From Nitrospinae bacterium RIFCSPLOWO2_12_FULL_45_22 (GTDB taxonomy: Bacteria; 2-12-FULL-45-22): DNA of 11,643 bases. Where the stretch lies: positions 1-11,643 of the forward strand of contig MHDQ01000019.1 in assembly GCA_001803565.1 (NCBI GenBank), in the 5' to 3' direction. The notes below the pieces were generated by a model. It was not told the origin of the DNA and searched no databases. It was given only the letters and a program-made list of their open reading frames with translations. Below, in pieces: positions 192-11,214 of the stretch (positions within the stretch are counted from its first letter, which is position 1; every line of letters starts with the position of its first letter). Made by a program: the position numbers and the translations under genes.

Positions 192-620
192 ATGGAGACA
201 GTCCGTATCCGAATGATGACCAAAGACGATCTAGCCCAGATTATAGAGATAGATAAGAAGATTACTGGCAGAGAGCGCACATCCACCTGGCCCCAAAAGG
301 TTAGTAGCCACTTCGAGACCTATGATCTGGCTCTCTGTTTTGTGGCAGAGGTTGAGGGTAGGGTCCGGGGCTTTATATTAGGTAATATCCGGGGTGCCGA
401 GTATGGCCTTCCCCTGGGGGGATGGATAGATATTATGGGGATTGACCCAGAATATCAAGGTAGAGGGATAGGGCGTATGCTGGCCGATGCCTTTACTGAG
501 GAGTGTCGTTTCAGGGGAATAAAGGCCCGGGTAATGACCCGAGCAAGTGATGAACGGCTGCAGAAATTCATGTTGCGTCTGGGTTTTAAACGGGGCGAAC
601 TAATCAATTTTGACAAATGA
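192..620 (+). CDS. GNAT-family N-acetyltransferase
   Basis: This 142-residue protein is a single GNAT domain, an acetyl-CoA-dependent transferase fold. The acetyl-CoA pyrophosphate-binding motif A is visible as IDPEYQGRGIGRMLADA, with Q-G-R-G-I-G at residues 89-94, after a beta strand (WIDIMGI). The C-terminal part (MTRASDERLQKFMLRLGFKRGE) matches the usual motif B region, where a substrate loop ends in LGF. The length is normal for a minimal GNAT protein such as RimI-like enzymes. The ATG at 192 is supported by GAGGT at 181-185, six bases upstream. The substrate cannot be predicted. The gene stands alone and converges on the broken transporter, overlapping its end by 21 bp. It could be a ribosomal-protein or small-molecule acetyltransferase. 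Confidence 0.88.
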   Translation: METVRIRMMTKDDLAQIIEIDKKITGRERTSTWPQKVSSHFETYDLALCFVAEVEGRVRGFILGNIRGAEYGLPLGGWIDIMGIDPEYQGRGIGRMLADAFTEECRFRGIKARVMTRASDERLQKFMLRLGFKRGELINFDK

Positions 621-1398
621 ATTCCTTGAAAAAACCCGAGAAGGTATGATAGCCAGAACTACCGTAGCCATAAACCATCCTACCCCGATAAGGAGAGTAA
701 TCCCTCTGGGATAATTCCCATAAGGTTTAATAATCTCCTGGTAGAGGGTTATTCCCAGGATGGCACTCAGGATCAATGGGGTAAAGAAGCGGATAGCAAT
801 ATCCCACCAAATGCCGAGGCCGATGCTGGAGCGGTGATTGATATGTCCCCTTAGCTCCTTAGGGGTCAAGGCCCATCCTATAACAAGGCATTCAACCAGT
901 CCCACCGTCATCAGTCCGTATTGGCTAATGAAGTGATCTACAATATCAATCCAGAAAAGCTCACCCCGGGTAGTGAAGACTATACCCCCGAGAAGTCCTA
1001 AAATACAACTAAAGGTTACTGCTTGCTCCCGACTAACACCGAACTTGTCCTTCAAGCTACAGGAAAAGGCATCAATAATGGAAATAGAAGATGATACCCC
1101 AGCGAGGATCAAGGCCAGGAAAAAGATTATACCGAAGAGATTGTTTAAGAAAGGTAGCTGGTTTATCGCATTGGGATAAGCTACAAAGGCCAGGCCTATC
1201 CCTTGAGTAATAACCTTTTCAAAGGGTTGGCCGCTGACCTGGGCCATATAACCCAAAATAAGGGATTAAGTAGGCACCACCGCCGTCTGTGTAGCACAAA
1301 TAGCTAAAGCGCCAGATATTACCCAGCCCTACTGCAGAACCGATAGCTGCCAATAGGAAGCCGGTCCTGGTTTCCCATTGCTCTCGTCTATTTTCCAC
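600..1398 (-). pseudogene. Broken NSS-family sodium:amino-acid transporter, middle deleted
   Basis: Two reading frames together give the two ends of a sodium:neurotransmitter symporter. The N-terminal fragment (1398 down to about 1257, possible GTG start at 1396-1398) reads [20 protein letters not shown] and then GLGNIWRF and GGGAYLIPY, the TM1 sodium/substrate-binding region. The C-terminal fragment (about 1256 to 600, 218 codons) begins [18 protein letters not shown] and covers the late membrane segments. Compared with the intact neighbour (511 residues), about 270 residues between TM1/2 and TM7/8 are missing, and the two parts are in different frames. The breakpoint lies near 1250-1262. 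There is no clear Shine-Dalgarno sequence before the GTG. A transporter of this structure cannot work, so I call it a pseudogene. An assembly error is the alternative. Confidence 0.82.
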
Positions 1399-1414
1399 TG
1401 TTTTCGTAATTGTC

Positions 1415-1662: not shown

Positions 1663-1800
1663 TTATTTTTTTTCTTTCTCAAAAGTAAGGCCACTAGTCC
1701 ATACTTTATAGAAGGAGTAGAGAGTAAGCAATATAATTCCAGACCAGGAGAGAATTAAGAATAACCAACCACCTAGATTTAGGCCACTATTATCCAGCAT
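1663..1800 (-). CDS. MetS-like small subunit of NSS transporter, single membrane segment
   Basis: A 45-codon ORF starts with ATG at 1798-1800, overlapping the end of the NSS transporter gene by 11 bp in another frame, and stops with TAA at 1663-1665. The predicted protein has a short polar N-terminus (MLDNSGLNLGG), one hydrophobic segment (about residues 11-31, WLFLILSWSGIILLTLYSF) and a lysine-rich tail (FEKEKK). NSS-family methionine/alanine importers are often followed by a tiny one-helix subunit (MetS, as in the Corynebacterium MetPS system) with a tryptophan-glycine motif in the helix. Position, size, topology and the W-S-G pattern fit that role. Expression is probably by translational coupling, as no separate Shine-Dalgarno site is obvious. 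The family assignment rests on context and layout, not on strong sequence identity. Confidence 0.72.
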   Translation of the reverse strand: MLDNSGLNLGGWLFLILSWSGIILLTLYSFYKVWTSGLTFEKEKK

Positions 1801-3325
1801 ATTTTTTCTTCCAGGCAATCCTGACCAGCCATACAAATCCCAGGAATAAAGCCAGGATCATGGCCCGGGCCAGCCAGAGATAGGGTCGAGCATCTGGCTC
1901 AATCCCCACCATTAAGACCTTACTTGGCACATCCTGGATTACCCAAAAAAGGAGTATACCAAGGAGAAAAACCGGGGTTACATACTTCAAGATATAGTAA
2001 AAAATCTGGGGAATAGAAATCAATGCCCCCCGTCCTATCTCCTTCCTAACTTTGTCTATGCCAAAAATCCAGACATAAACGATCACCTCCAGGACGGCAA
2101 AGAGTACTAAAGCTAGAGTGCCTACCCAAAAGTCTATCTCATCCAGAAACCCTTTATCAATGAATAGGATAACTGGCTGTGCCAGGGTAAAGGTAATGAT
2201 CCCTAAAATCCAGGTAGCCTTTGTTCGCGAGATGTTCAACTCGTCTTGTAAAAAGGCCATGACCGATTGTCCTAGAGCAACTGCCGAGGTCAGACCGGCT
2301 ATAAAAAGCAGAAAAAACCAGAGGGTACCAAAGAACTTTCCCCAGAATATTCTTTGAAAGATTATGGGCATGGCCTGAAAACCCAGGTCAAAAGCCCCTC
2401 CATTAGCAATGTTTTGGCTCTCGGCTAGCCCAAAAAAGGTCACGGCTGCCGGGATAGCAATGGTGCTACCCAAGACTACTTCAGCTAACTCATTGGTAGA
2501 GGCCGTTGCCAGCCCGGTAAGGGCTACATCATCCCTTTCTTGTAAGTAGCTGGTATAGGTATGGATAATGCCCCAGCCTACACTAAGGGTAAAAAATATC
2601 TGCCCGGCCGCAGCCAGCCAGATAGAAGAGCTGGTTAAGGCCTTAAAATTGGGATTCCAGACATAGGCCAACCCTTGTCCTGGATTCCAATCGGGATGGG
2701 TAGGGTCGGGCGTGCCAAAAGTTAGGACCCTGATAGCCAGGACTATTCCCACCAGAAATAATAATGGTATGCCTATACTACATAAGATCTCAATACCCCG
2801 CGCTACACCCCTTGATAAGATAAACATGGTTATCCCCAGGGTTATTATAAAGAAGGCATAAGCAGATAACAGATTGGTGAAATATTGGTTGGCTTGTTTC
2901 CCCTGGAACCCGGCTAAAAACGCCCCCATCGCCTCCCGGCTCTGGGCTCCGAAATATTGGCCAGTAGCAGAAAAGAAGCTAAAGGCCAGGGTCCAGGAGG
3001 TTATATAAGAATAGTAGATCAGGATGGTAAAGGGGATAAAGATTCCGAGCACACCCATATATTTAGATATTTTATGGGACCAGATACTATCGAGCATCCC
3101 GGGGGTAGTGTGATAGCCTCGCTGTCCACCCAGCCTGCCCAGGCTGCACTCCATCCACATCAGAGGGATACCCAGGAGGATGAGGGAGATAAAATAGGGG
3201 ATCATAAAGGCCCCCCCACCATTTTTTACTGCCTGTACCGGGAACCGCAGGAAGTTCCCCAGTCCAATAGCATTCCCTGCTAAGGCCATGATCAGCCCTA
3301 TTCGAGTACCCCACCGCTCTGGCAT
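1790..3325 (-). CDS. Sodium-dependent NSS-family amino-acid transporter
   Basis: The product is an inner-membrane symporter of the sodium:neurotransmitter symporter (SNF/LeuT) family, importing an amino acid or related solute with sodium. The TM1 signature is clear: RWGTRIGLIMALAGNAIGLG followed by NFLRFP and NGGGAFMIPYF, which contains the unwound GNAIGLGN sodium/substrate site. At 511 residues with about 12 hydrophobic segments, it has the family length. The ATG at 3325 is chosen because AAGGAAGG sits five bases upstream, the LeuT-type N-terminus begins there, and the in-frame ATG at 3385 lies between the -35 and -10 boxes of the likely promoter. The gene overlaps the MetS-like gene by 11 bp. 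The neighbouring broken paralogue belongs to the same family. The substrate is unknown. Confidence 0.93.
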   Translation of the reverse strand: MPERWGTRIGLIMALAGNAIGLGNFLRFPVQAVKNGGGAFMIPYFISLILLGIPLMWMECSLGRLGGQRGYHTTPGMLDSIWSHKISKYMGVLGIFIPFTILIYYSYITSWTLAFSFFSATGQYFGAQSREAMGAFLAGFQGKQANQYFTNLLSAYAFFIITLGITMFILSRGVARGIEILCSIGIPLLFLVGIVLAIRVLTFGTPDPTHPDWNPGQGLAYVWNPNFKALTSSSIWLAAAGQIFFTLSVGWGIIHTYTSYLQERDDVALTGLATASTNELAEVVLGSTIAIPAAVTFFGLAESQNIANGGAFDLGFQAMPIIFQRIFWGKFFGTLWFFLLFIAGLTSAVALGQSVMAFLQDELNISRTKATWILGIITFTLAQPVILFIDKGFLDEIDFWVGTLALVLFAVLEVIVYVWIFGIDKVRKEIGRGALISIPQIFYYILKYVTPVFLLGILLFWVIQDVPSKVLMVGIEPDARPYLWLARAMILALFLGFVWLVRIAWKKKYAG

Positions 3326-3367
3326 TGTCACCTTCCTTGCAAGAGATTTATGAAAAAGCCGGGCAAC

Positions 3368-3396
3368 TTTATATCCGATCACCATGCTAAAGTCAA
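3368..3396 (-). promoter_or_regulatory. Sigma-70-type promoter of the NSS transporter gene
   Basis: On the minus strand TTGACT (3396-3391) is followed after exactly 17 bases by TATAAA (3373-3368), one mismatch from consensus in each box. Transcription would start near 3361, giving a leader of about 36 bases before the ATG at 3325. The longer start at 3385 falls inside the -35/-10 spacer and would not be on this transcript. Confidence 0.6.
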
Positions 3397-3618: not shown

Positions 3619-4155
3619 GTGGCTACTTCCCTTTATTTCAACAAAGAACAGTATAATTGGACTATAGAGGCCGTTGAATACGCTGAGGATTTGGTTAAGT
3701 ATTTCTACCAGATGGCATATAGGGATTGGCAAGGTCTCTACTATGATGTTAAAACGTTAGCTGATTTGCAAATCCATGAGATTACTGATCAGGCCTTTGC
3801 CCAATTGGCTCGGTATGAAATGACTATGCCTGGGGGATCAAGGAGGACCGAGACTACTGAGTTTTATAGGATCTGTATCCAGGATCACAAGATTTTAGAT
3901 GCGATAGAGAATAGAGAAGACGGTATTAGCTTTCGCCCTTTAGTCCTCTATATTGTTACCCATGAGTTAATCCATATTATTAGGTTTGGTAAGCTTCTTA
4001 AGTGGTACGAAATACCTTCGGGCAGCGAAGCGGAAGAGGCCCGGGTTCATAAGGTTACCGGTCAGATTTTAAAAAATATTAATATGCCAGGGCTAGAGAA
4101 AGTCCTTGATAGCTATCAGGTTTATAGTATAGCTCGAAATGATCTGAGCAACTGA
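3619..4155 (+). CDS. Unrecognised protein with HExxH zinc-metalloprotease-like motif
   Basis: This 178-residue soluble protein begins with GTG at 3619, ten bases after AGGAGG (3603-3608). The two ATGs just after that site are in another frame that stops after 15 codons. A hydrophobic strand or helix LVLYIVTHELIHIIRFG carries HELIH at residues 115-119, the zincin active-site pattern. It is followed by an acidic stretch ending EEARVH (139-144) that could supply a third metal ligand. The N-terminal half is rich in tyrosine and aromatic residues (NWTIEAVEYAEDLVKYFYQM) and has no signal peptide, so the protein is probably cytoplasmic. I do not recognise a named family. The next gene, a FmdB-type zinc ribbon, starts 14 bases downstream and is surely co-transcribed, which hints at a shared regulatory or quality-control role. 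Peptidase activity is inferred only from the motif. Confidence 0.75.
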   Translation: MATSLYFNKEQYNWTIEAVEYAEDLVKYFYQMAYRDWQGLYYDVKTLADLQIHEITDQAFAQLARYEMTMPGGSRRTETTEFYRICIQDHKILDAIENREDGISFRPLVLYIVTHELIHIIRFGKLLKWYEIPSGSEAEEARVHKVTGQILKNINMPGLEKVLDSYQVYSIARNDLSN

Positions 4156-4445: not shown

Positions 4446-5751
4446 CGGCTTGCCCCTTCCGGGATAAATAATCGTCCACCAGCTCCAGGGCCTCTTGTCT
4501 GTTAGATATTTTTTCTTCTAACTGGGCATCTTCTATCAAGGTCAGCACTTCAGAGAAAAGGGGGCCGGGCTTATAGCCCATAGCAATAAGGTCATGGCCT
4601 GTTATTAAGCGGGGCGGGCGCAGGGCTTGTGGACTCAACTCTTTTAACTTTGCCTGACAAAATTCCCAATTGCTTAAGTTTCTATGACTGGCCAGGCAAT
4701 CCAGCCGGTGCAATTCTAAATGATCAGAAAAATCCTCCATCTGCAAAAAGCGCTTCAGCTTATTAAGCCGCATCTCCTGGACATGGATGAATTTCAGGTG
4801 ATGTCTGACCAGGGATACGATCTTATCCGTCTCTTTGCGGGAGAAGCGCAGCCGCAGACAAATATCTTCTGTCAGCTTAGAGCCTACCCGGGCATGGTTC
4901 TTAAAGGTTATCCGGTCAGTTAGATTCACTTCGCTCACTACATGCTTTTCATAAGTAAGGGGTTTGCCAATATCATGCAATAATACCGCTACTGCTAATT
5001 CGGGTGATGATGTTTCCATATGCTTTAGCATCAATAAAGTATGGGTCAGGACATCGCCTTCGGGATGATATTCCGGGGGTTGCTCTATCCCGGCCATAGC
5101 AGCTACCTCAGGCAGGATATGTTGCATTATACCGGTGTCGAGGAGTAATTTCGCACCAGCATACGCATTTTTGTCACTAAGGATCTTTATTAGCTCATCC
5201 CTGATCCGCTCAGGGCTTACCAGAACAATCTCTGAAGCCAGGTCTTTTAAGGCGATCAAAGTATTTTTTTCGATCTGAAATTGATACCGGCTAGCTAGTC
5301 GGATAGCCCGCATGAGCCGTAGCCGGTCTTCCCGAAACCGGGCAACCGGATCACCAATTGCCCGGGTAATCTTTCCCTCAATATCTTTCCTGCCACCAAC
5401 ATAATCCAACACCTTATCCTCTAAAGGGTCATAGAGCAGGCCATTGATAGTAAAATCCCGGAGTTGGGTATCACCTTCCTCAGACCAGGGCTCCCTACCA
5501 CGGAAAGAGGTGAGCTGGAACTGGTGCTGGTTTAACAGAATCATTACTACGGGGAATTGGGTCCCCAGGATAAAGGTCTTATCGAAGAGCTTTTTGATCT
5601 GTTCGGGAGAAGCATCGGTAGCTATATCATAGTCCTGGGGCTCCAGGCCCATGAGTGTATCTCTTACACAGCCACCGGCCAGGTATGCCTTAAAGTGATG
5701 TTTTCTGAGCCGTTCGATAATTTTTAGCGCCTCTTCTCTCATGCCGGTCAT
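4420..5751 (-). CDS. cca: CCA-adding tRNA nucleotidyltransferase with HD domain
   Basis: This class II tRNA nucleotidyltransferase/poly(A) polymerase family protein of 443 residues adds or repairs the 3' CCA of tRNA. The head domain shows GGCVRD (26-31), the metal-binding DYDIAT (D40, D42), and RDFTINGLLYDP (98-109). The nucleotide-recognition helix region REDRLRLMRAIR is at 140-151. An HD phosphohydrolase domain follows: THTLLML (H237), LLHDIGKP (HD at 259-260) and RHHLKF. Related enzymes in Firmicutes and other bacteria share this layout. The start ATG at 5751 overlaps the selD stop as ATGA, so translation is coupled; the in-frame ATG at residue 4 is an alternative. Residues 271-277 (VVSEVNL) and the last eight residues come from the 26-bp repeat, so the HD domain holds a repeat-derived loop between KPLTYEK and RITFKNH. 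It could be purely a poly(A) polymerase, but CCA activity is likelier. Confidence 0.92.
   Translation of the reverse strand: MTGMREEALKIIERLRKHHFKAYLAGGCVRDTLMGLEPQDYDIATDASPEQIKKLFDKTFILGTQFPVVMILLNQHQFQLTSFRGREPWSEEGDTQLRDFTINGLLYDPLEDKVLDYVGGRKDIEGKITRAIGDPVARFREDRLRLMRAIRLASRYQFQIEKNTLIALKDLASEIVLVSPERIRDELIKILSDKNAYAGAKLLLDTGIMQHILPEVAAMAGIEQPPEYHPEGDVLTHTLLMLKHMETSSPELAVAVLLHDIGKPLTYEKHVVSEVNLTDRITFKNHARVGSKLTEDICLRLRFSRKETDKIVSLVRHHLKFIHVQEMRLNKLKRFLQMEDFSDHLELHRLDCLASHRNLSNWEFCQAKLKELSPQALRPPRLITGHDLIAMGYKPGPLFSEVLTLIEDAQLEEKISNRQEALELVDDYLSRKGQAGSERSESI
4916..4941. repeat. 26-bp repeat, copy 2 (inside the HD domain of the CCA enzyme)
   Basis: This second copy of the block at 4420-4445 has three differences. 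Here it is read in another frame (codons for VVSEVNL, residues 271-277, plus part of the next codons) without interrupting the ORF. In related enzymes the linker between the HD-domain motifs DIGKP and RIxFxxH is, from memory, about six residues shorter. Confidence 0.65.
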
Positions 5752-6809
5752 GCTAAAACGTTAATCTTCCCCTCTTTATCCTCTATAATCCGGCCAATAA
5801 TAGCCGCGGCTGGGGTCTTCTTTTTTTTAAGCAATGCCAGGAGCTGGTCTGCTTTATTTGCTGGCACTGATATCAGGAGCCCCCCGGAGGTTTGGGCATC
5901 ACACAGGACTAATTCCTCTTCCAGGGTTATTTTGCGGTGCCAATTAACACTATCAGCTAAGAAATTACGGTTGGCATGGGTACCACCCGGGGCGATCCCT
6001 TTCTTAACTAAATCCCAGGTCTCTTCTATGACTGGCACTTTATCTAGATAAATCTCTGCTCCTACACCACTACCAACGGTCATTTCATGCAAGTGTCCCA
6101 GTAGCCCAAAACCGGTTATATCAGTACAGGCATTTACTCCTATTTGGAGCATGGCTTCCGAAGCCGCCCGGTTTAAAGAGGTCATTACGTATACTGCCTT
6201 GTCTACTACCTCTCCTGCTACCTCATCTTTTTTAATGGCGGTAGTAATTATCCCGATACCCAGGGGCTTGGTAAGGATCAGTAGATCACCTACTTTTGCC
6301 CCGGCATTAGTTACTACCTCTTTGGGATTAATTAGCCCAGTAACCGCTAGACCATATTTAGGCTCAGGATCGTTAATAGTATGGCCGCCCACAATAGTTA
6401 CCTGGGCTTCTTTGGCCTTCTCTGCCCCACCTTTTAATATCTGTGTCAGTATAGCCAAAGGCAGGGTGTTGTTAGGGAACCCGACAATATTCAGGGCAAT
6501 CAGGGGTTTTCCCCCCATGGCATATATGTCACTTATAGAATTAGCCACCGCTATTGCCCCGAAGCTATAAGGGTCGTCTACTACTGGCGTAATGTAGTCC
6601 ACAGTCTGGACCAGGGCCAGATCATCCGTTATTTGATAGACGGCGGCATCATCCGCGGTATTAGTTCCTACCAGGAGGTTGGGGTCTTCTATTTGTGGTA
6701 GTTCACGCAGCACCTGCGCTAAGTCCTGAGGACTGAGCTTGCAGGCTCAACCACCACCATGACTGAAGGCCGTTAGACGGGTCTTAGGGTCTTTTTCCGG
6801 TTGTGCCAT
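5748..6809 (-). CDS. selD: Selenide, water dikinase (selenophosphate synthetase), selenoprotein form
   Basis: SelD makes selenophosphate from selenide and ATP, the selenium donor for selenocysteine. Read with UGA (6747-6749) as selenocysteine, the protein has 353 residues, normal for the family. It begins MAQPEKDPKTRLTAFS and then HGGGUACKLSP, with Sec21 at the catalytic Cys/Sec position and Lys24 as the catalytic lysine. The ATP/metal-binding blocks follow: DDAAVY (about 53-58), DYITPVVDDPYSFG (71 onward), and NSISDIYAMGGKP (90-102). The start ATG at 6807-6809 has AGAAAGGAG about nine bases upstream. A conventional ORF would start at GTG 6713, losing the glycine-rich N-terminus and the active site. 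It lies 23 bases after the oxidoreductase gene and overlaps cca by ATGA, so it is the middle gene of an operon. Decoding requires SelA/SelB and tRNA-Sec elsewhere in the genome. Confidence 0.95.
6713..6745 (-). promoter_or_regulatory. Candidate SECIS hairpin for selD
   Basis: The mRNA one base after the UGA can fold into a long hairpin. The stem is CCUGC (6745-6741), GCU (6738-6736) and AGUCC (6734-6730), pairing with GGACU (6726-6722), AGC (6720-6718) and GCAGG (6717-6713). There is an AA bulge on the 5' side, one C/U mismatch and a three-base UCA loop. Thirteen pairs are Watson-Crick. The apical loop is 17 bases from the UGA, within the spacing known for bacterial SECIS elements. The loop lacks the G found in the Escherichia coli SECIS loop, so recognition by SelB would be lineage-specific. 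Confidence 0.7.
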
Positions 6810-6832
6810 TATCTATTTCTCCTTTCTAATTT

Positions 6833-8758
6833 TTATATTTCTTTAGCTACATTGTAACCTTCATGTATAGCCTCTAAGAGGGAACGAGGCCCTTTTCGAT
6901 CGCCAATAAAATAGACGGGCAGGCCTTTGTTATTCAAATTCGAAAAATCCTCCCTGGCAGCTAACCCAATCGCAATTACCACACTATCCACCGGTATTTT
7001 TGTCTTTTCGTTTGCCCGTCTCACCCAAATAGCGTTTTCAGCTAAGGCTTCAAAAACGGTGTTAGTCAGTACAGTAATCTTCTTTTGCTCCAACCGTTGC
7101 TTTTGGAACATACGGGCGATGGGGCCAAGCTCAGTAGCAACTTTGTCTAACATCTCTATAATTATGACCTCTTTGCCTTGGTCGGCTAAGAATTCCGCAG
7201 TTTCAACCCCTACTAATCCGCCACCAATAACGGCCACTTTTTGCCCGGTGGGCCTTCCTTCTAATACATCTCTATATGAGAGGATTTTTCCCCTGTCAAT
7301 TCTTATCCCGGGAGGGGCTACTGGTGTTGCGCCAGTGGCAACGATAATTATATCAGGGGCAAGGGCTGCAATATCTTCTGGTTTTATTTCCTTCCCCAGA
7401 TGGACTTCTACTCCCAGTTTCCTTAGCTGAGTCTTAAAGTATTGTAATACACTATCCAGCCCCTCTTTATGGGGAGGTATTTTAGCTATGCATAATTGTC
7501 CACCCAATTCCGGTTCTTTTTCAAATAAGATCGCTTCATATCCCTTTAATGCTGCTACCCGGGCTGCTTCCATCCCTCCCGGCCCCCCGCCGATAATAAT
7601 TACTCGTTTACGCTCCTGGGCCCGGGTTATCGGGGGCTCTTGTTCCCTACCAGCCTGGGCATTAAGGGTACAGGCAATGGGTCGGTTACTATATGCCCGG
7701 TCTACACATCCTTTATTACATGCAATACACTTTCTGATGTCTTCTAAGCGGCCTTCCAGGGTCTTTTTTAGTATCTCTGGATCAGCAATTAGGGGCCGGC
7801 CCAGGGCGATCAAGTCCGCTTTCCCTTCCTGAAGAATGCTTTCAGCTAGTAAAGGGTCGTTTATCCTGCCAAAAGTAATAACCGGCTTTTTAGTAACTCT
7901 CTTTACCCTTTCAGCCAGGGGTACTAAGCTCCCGGGTGGAAAGCACATGGGAATAACATTTACCAGGTTCCGGGATACTACTACCGAGACATTGAAGATA
8001 TCGGCCCCAGCCTCTTCTAACATATTGACCAATTGGATTATTTCTTTTTCGCTATACCTCCCTGCGGGATATTCGCTGGCTGGTATGCGGCAGGAAATGG
8101 GGAAATCATCCCCTACAGCATCTCTTACAGAAGATACTATCTGGCAAAGGAAACGGGCTCGATTCTCAAAACTGCCCCCGTATTCGTCAGTTCTGGTGTT
8201 AGAATCAGCCATCAAGAATTGTTCTGGCAGAGTACGGTGTCCCAAAAGAACCTCCAGGGCATCCAATCCCGCTTCTTTTGCCCTACTGGCTGCCTGGGCA
8301 TAGCATTCCAAAGTTCGTTTAATATCATCCAGGGTCATTTCTCTGGGCCTCTCGCCCAAAGACAGGTCTGCCAAACGTGACATAGCAGGCGGAACAGATG
8401 AGGCCGAAATGGGTTGAGTACCGATAATAGCAGGAGTACATTCTCTGCCCCCATGCATAAACTGGACTGATACCCTGGCGCCATATTTATGTAAAGTATC
8501 TGCCAGGAGTTTAAATCCAGGGATATGACTATCATCAAATAAAGAAAGGTTATGGTCCATTATCCTGCCTATTGTCTCTACTACAGTAGCTTCTATGGTT
8601 ATCAGTCCTACCTCACCCTTTGCCCTTTGTTCATAATAGGCAATCATCCTGGGGGTTACATTACCTTGAACATCTGCTAAATTAGTCCCCATAGGTGGCA
8701 TTACTACCCGGTTCTTTAACCTCATCCCTTTGATCTGGATCGGTTCAAACAGTTTCAT
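6833..8758 (-). CDS. FMN/FAD/4Fe-4S oxidoreductase of the 2,4-dienoyl-CoA reductase/old yellow enzyme family
   Basis: This 641-residue protein has the three-part layout of FadH-type enzymes. An FMN-binding TIM barrel (about 1-340) begins LFEPIQIKGMRLKNRVVMPP. A 4Fe-4S site has C344, C347, C351 and C363 in KCIACNKGCVDRAYSNRPIA. Then come an FAD domain (IIIGGGPGGMEAAR, about 387-400) and a pyridine-nucleotide domain (VIGGGLVGVETAEF, about 510-523). Electrons would pass from NAD(P)H through FAD and the cluster to FMN. The barrel active site is unusual. Where E. coli FadH has GSEGYLINEF, this protein has LLGHRTLPEQF, so the catalytic Tyr becomes Thr176, and the catalytic His appears to become Ser262. 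The substrate is therefore probably not a dienoyl-CoA. The ATG at 8758 follows GGAGAGG by five bases. It is the first gene of the operon with selD and cca. Confidence 0.88.
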   Translation of the reverse strand: MKLFEPIQIKGMRLKNRVVMPPMGTNLADVQGNVTPRMIAYYEQRAKGEVGLITIEATVVETIGRIMDHNLSLFDDSHIPGFKLLADTLHKYGARVSVQFMHGGRECTPAIIGTQPISASSVPPAMSRLADLSLGERPREMTLDDIKRTLECYAQAASRAKEAGLDALEVLLGHRTLPEQFLMADSNTRTDEYGGSFENRARFLCQIVSSVRDAVGDDFPISCRIPASEYPAGRYSEKEIIQLVNMLEEAGADIFNVSVVVSRNLVNVIPMCFPPGSLVPLAERVKRVTKKPVITFGRINDPLLAESILQEGKADLIALGRPLIADPEILKKTLEGRLEDIRKCIACNKGCVDRAYSNRPIACTLNAQAGREQEPPITRAQERKRVIIIGGGPGGMEAARVAALKGYEAILFEKEPELGGQLCIAKIPPHKEGLDSVLQYFKTQLRKLGVEVHLGKEIKPEDIAALAPDIIIVATGATPVAPPGIRIDRGKILSYRDVLEGRPTGQKVAVIGGGLVGVETAEFLADQGKEVIIIEMLDKVATELGPIARMFQKQRLEQKKITVLTNTVFEALAENAIWVRRANEKTKIPVDSVVIAIGLAAREDFSNLNNKGLPVYFIGDRKGPRSLLEAIHEGYNVAKEI

Positions 8759-10437: not shown

Positions 10438-11214
10438 TTAGAGGGTATTTATGATTGTGGCGACCGGGTGAGACGACCTGGCATTCCCTAATATTATCTG
10501 CTTTATCCTGGGGTGGTGGCTAGCAAGGACCTTTTCTGCTAAGGATTTTGCCTGATTAAGGTCACTTAGCAATTCAACTTTATTGAAAAAAGGGATAATC
10601 CGAGCACCTGCTGGGCTACCTTTAATAATACCGAACGGATGGGTAAGGAGAGAAGCAATATGCTCCTGGGTGATGATCTCTCCTAGTGGGATTTTCAGGA
10701 GATTAGCAACTAGTTCCGCACGAAAGACATGCCCCTCCATAAGCTCTTTGCCTAACACATCTAGACCTACTACTGGTATCATTAAACTGGTTGTTTCAGG
10801 AATCACTGGCTCCCAATCAGCCGGGGCCTTTAAGGATTTTTGCGCCGCACCATCCGCTTCAATTATAATGGGCACATCGGGCAGTAGCTGTCTTAATTCA
10901 TTTATTGTTTCAGGTTTTAGCCCTTTCAATTTGCCACCTGGCAACGAGTTAGCGGCTAAAGTAATATGTCTATAGTTTTCCAGGGCCTTTGATAAGCTAG
11001 AGGGTATTCTTTCTTCCGGAGAAAGTAAGAGAACATGGGGGCTTTCTGTGGAGTTAGGACGCCTGATTTTAGTAGTAGTAGTAGTAATAACGTAGCTATG
11101 TTGCCGGGTAAGTTCCTTAGCCAGATTATACATCAAGGTAGTCTTACCCCCTGCACCTACCAGGCTTATAATCTCACCTGCCGCAATTCCAAACGCTTCT
11201 ACAAGGTCTAACAT
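10438..11214 (-). CDS. yqeC: Selenium cofactor biosynthesis protein YqeC
   Basis: This 258-residue P-loop protein matches the YqeC family, linked by genome co-occurrence to maturation of selenium-dependent molybdenum hydroxylases. The N-terminus LVEAFGIAAGEIISLVGAGG leads into the nucleotide-binding loop GAGGKTT (20-26). The family-typical blocks are TTTTTKI (44-50), IIIEADGAAQKSLKAP (116-131, with a probable catalytic or metal-binding Asp121) and VVGLDVLGK (148-156). The length is usual for the family. The ATG at 11214 gives the expected N-terminus, but its ribosome site is weak: AAGG is almost touching the ATG, and GAAGGA lies further back. Together with selD in this window it suggests that the organism uses selenium for a labile cofactor as well as selenocysteine. 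No molybdenum hydroxylase gene is present here. The 63-base gap to the upstream TPR gene has no clear promoter. Confidence 0.88.
   Translation of the reverse strand: MLDLVEAFGIAAGEIISLVGAGGKTTLMYNLAKELTRQHSYVITTTTTKIRRPNSTESPHVLLLSPEERIPSSLSKALENYRHITLAANSLPGGKLKGLKPETINELRQLLPDVPIIIEADGAAQKSLKAPADWEPVIPETTSLMIPVVGLDVLGKELMEGHVFRAELVANLLKIPLGEIITQEHIASLLTHPFGIIKGSPAGARIIPFFNKVELLSDLNQAKSLAEKVLASHHPRIKQIILGNARSSHPVATIINTL

Follow-up and report, generated by a model that had tools for sequence, protein, structure and literature searches.

Where does the protein encoded on the minus strand of this 11,643-nucleotide stretch of Nitrospinae DNA (the window) begin: at a GTG at 6713, from which a mechanical ORF caller opens a 321-aa ORF, or upstream of it, across an in-frame UGA? 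The original prediction had continued the frame from that GTG through a single UGA (6747–6749) to an ATG at 6809 with a good ribosome site, and these coordinates all proved exact. On the minus strand, the ATG lies at 6809–6807, the TGA at 6749–6747, the GTG at 6713–6711, and the terminator, also a TGA, at 5750–5748. The TGA at 6749–6747 is the lone in-frame stop between the ATG and the terminator, and a Shine-Dalgarno-like sequence precedes the ATG. The gene has the following features:

5748–6809, minus strand: selD, predicted to encode selenophosphate synthetase (selenide, water dikinase) of 353 residues with Sec21; matches to TIGR00476, PRK00943, and PDB 3u0o and 2yye.
6815–6827, minus strand: ribosome-binding site region AGAAAGGAG, 5' of the ATG at 6809, recognised from the sequence.
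6747–6749, minus strand: in-frame UGA, predicted to be read as selenocysteine (Sec21), which aligns with the SelD catalytic Cys; supported by the codon column and the alignments.
6711–6713, minus strand: GTG that serves as the start for a table-11 ORF caller, and most likely the apical loop of a SECIS element rather than a start.

Translated from the ATG with the UGA as selenocysteine, the protein begins MAQPEKDPKTRLTAFSHGGGUACKLSPQDL... and clearly belongs to the SelD family. It scores 407.6 bits against the curated NCBIfam model TIGR00476 for selD (cut-off 125) and 389 bits against PRK00943 (cut-off 299), also a curated NCBIfam model, and the solved SelD structures match from the N-terminal part on (3u0o, 275 bits; 2yye, 246 bits). 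Alignment with other SelDs covers the full length, including the N-terminus and the catalytic position. In the alignment with 3u0o, the structure of E. coli SelD, residue 21 (SHGGGUACKLSP) falls on the Cys of SHGAGCGCKISP, which is the catalytic Cys17, and Lys24 on the conserved SelD Lys. U21 and K24 form a C/U-x-x-K motif that occupies invariant alignment columns, also when aligned to 3u0o. The SelD catalytic motif with Sec as the nucleophile, claimed from the letters around the UGA, is therefore borne out in that Sec21 sits on the catalytic Cys of 3u0o. The 321-aa product from the GTG would be truncated, as had been claimed, and would lack the catalytic residue, Lys24, and the surrounding N-terminal segment.

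We then considered the codon at the Sec21 position in 103 SelD genes: 80 are from named genomes, and a genome search contributed the other 23, one of which is the window's own gene. The codon is TGA in 39 genes, TGC in 47, and TGT in 17, and no other codon occurs. A relative with a codon for neither Cys nor Sec would have spoken against selenocysteine; there is none, and with only TGA or TGC/TGT (64 genes) at the catalytic column, the pattern is the one expected for Cys/Sec exchange. The residues upstream of the GTG align with SelD N-termini (RLT..SHG.GU.CKLSP.DLAQVLR), and since, in addition, the TGA column holds Cys codons or TGA in 103 of 103 genes, the extension to the ATG at 6809 is not a chance open frame. 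Four genomes have two SelD genes each: both copies contain a TGA in G032, G033, and G022, and in G031 one copy is open and the other has a TGA.

The same column bears on the more serious of two alternatives, namely that the TGA is a true stop, a sequencing error, or a nonsense mutation in a Cys-type selD, so that the gene either starts at the GTG at 6713 or is broken. An ORF of 321 aa does exist from this GTG, and TGA is one substitution away from both TGC and TGT. What speaks against this alternative is that the TGA recurs at the same place in 39 of the 103 genes, including that of a relative from the same order (G001, 63–64% identical), and that a product starting at 6713 would be deprived of the residues needed for the motif described above.

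The RNA structure also speaks against a stop or an error. Downstream of the UGA we found a conserved hairpin, most likely a bacterial SECIS element, which the original prediction had not included:

6705–6719, minus strand: putative bacterial SECIS hairpin with a 6-bp stem (6719–6714/6710–6705) and the loop GUG (6713–6711), 33 nt past the UGA; supported by covariation and fold.

The apical loop coincides exactly with the GTG that ORF callers take as the start. At least six of seven hairpin pairs are kept in 22 of the 39 UGA genes versus 3 of the 64 Cys genes, a difference that is absent in shifted registers. The hairpin is thus conserved alongside TGA and rarely alongside Cys. Covariation was scored in 21 UGA genes, mostly of top similarity rank, which were not chosen by pairing but were picked after the comparison of the 39 with the 64 genes. 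In this alignment, 91.2% of cells pair, both partners have changed in five of the seven pairs, and the covariation score was reached by none of 500 shuffles, a control that ignores the relatedness of the sequences. RNAalifold predicts the same hairpin (6719–6714/6710–6705) unprompted. The 48 nt from the codon onward are also more stable in UGA genes (mean z of -1.6 versus -0.2 in Cys genes), with z-scores relative to dinucleotide shuffles and with UGA and Cys sets that are not phylogenetically independent.

The loop, with G first and then U, and the spacing of 33 nt agree with the published bSECIS model (PMC13188914). The energy limit of that model is -7.5 kcal/mol, and the isolated hairpin, at -7.1 kcal/mol, falls slightly short of it. 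A longer, 42-nt stretch reaches -19.0 kcal/mol in its minimum-energy fold, but this structure differs from the SECIS hairpin and is not conserved in relatives. The first SECIS candidate, the minimum-energy fold of the stretch immediately 3' of the UGA (loop UCA, at a distance of 17 nt), was rejected: it has no loop G, and the covariation of its pairs does not exceed that of shuffles. Rfam gave no match, either at the gathering score on the window or at a relaxed threshold on 6600–6850. More distant UGA genes (e.g., L105, L106, and L114–L116) are without this hairpin and may use a different one.

The original prediction further held that the organism must possess the full selenocysteine machinery, and selA, selB, and the tRNA-Sec (selC) are indeed all encoded in the genome, a 3.67 Mb draft that is 85% complete. 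One tRNA-Sec scores above the Rfam cut-off (75.3 bits, contig C247) and is confirmed by ARAGORN with the anticodon TCA, and selA (588 bits) and selB (372 bits), both above cut-off, form a pair overlapping by 4 bases on another contig (C264). This apparatus also counts against the TGA being a true stop or an error, which we consider very improbable. Decoding of the UGA as another amino acid (e.g., Trp in a reassigned code) is more improbable still, as nothing specific favours it and it is contradicted by the termination of selD itself with TGA (5750–5748), by a column that is exclusively Cys/UGA, and by the dedicated machinery in the genome. Judging from sequence evidence, selD almost certainly encodes a selenophosphate synthetase with Sec as its active-site nucleophile, which would be translated from the ATG at 6809 through SelB/SECIS recoding.

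In the mechanism that we propose for this selenoprotein, translation would initiate at the ATG at 6809, and SelB bound to the hairpin at 6719–6705 would bring Sec-tRNA-Sec to the UGA at 6749–6747, where the ribosome would insert Sec rather than terminate and so complete the 353-residue enzyme. SelD is predicted to convert selenide and ATP to selenophosphate, which SelA would use for Sec-tRNA-Sec and which probably also supplies the selenium cofactor of molybdenum hydroxylases.

The window also encodes YqeC (10438–11214, minus strand; 177 bits, cut-off 73), whose name ties it to selenium-cofactor synthesis, and seven molybdenum-hydroxylase subunits (PF02738) are present in the genome. Neither YqeB nor a selenouridine synthase was found above cut-off in the draft genome. 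Among other candidate selenoproteins in the same draft, there were no UGA-containing genes in the 18 regions of formate-dehydrogenase-like oxidoreductases examined and no UGA in FlpD/MvhD or AhpC-TSA genes; HesB had no match in the genome, nor did glycine reductase B in a search run without a positive control. One could read this as SelD being the organism's only selenoprotein, with the whole Sec apparatus kept for an enzyme that produces the selenium donor for its own synthesis and the output going mainly to the molybdenum-hydroxylase selenium cofactor because no selenouridine synthase exceeds the cut-off, but this reading, drawn from few families in an 85%-complete draft, is doubtful.

The window has further features apart from selD. 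A second SNF-family sodium symporter looks broken (600–1400, minus strand): a C-terminal piece (600–1256) directly follows an N-terminal piece (GLGNIWRF...) in another frame and the middle is missing, which would point to an internal deletion or an assembly join. Its paralogue at 1790–3385 looks intact. A 178-aa ORF (3619–4155, plus strand) has a metalloprotease-like HELIH motif and no match in NCBIfam or Pfam. A search of a plasmid collection gave no match.

The surprise implied by the original prediction is overstated, as catalogues of selenoproteins have included Sec-containing SelD for two decades (PMC1794560, PMC4561486). Thirty-eight Sec-SelDs were listed in 2006, including those of Moorella thermoacetica, Carboxydothermus hydrogenoformans, and Desulfotomaculum reducens (PMC1794560), and of the SelD genes detected in a 223-genome reference set, 19% have Sec, the position never varying (PMC4561486). 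The gene described here shares with Sec-containing bacterial SelD (SPS-Sec, PMC1794560) the catalytic UGA, a downstream SECIS in the coding region, and Sec-decoding genes in the genome. There is no substantial difference: the motif is GGGUACK here and UGCK, UASK, or UAAK in many relatives. The E. coli-type Cys SelD (PDB 3u0o) is of the same family and matches, motif included, over most of its length (275 bits), but it has Cys where the gene here has Sec and needs no SECIS. Sec-containing SelD is among the commonest bacterial selenoproteins, and the present case is an ordinary one that adds no new biology. For annotation, the start of selD belongs at 6809 and residue 21 should be given as Sec, and the locus makes a small didactic point in that the false GTG start falls within the SECIS apical loop.
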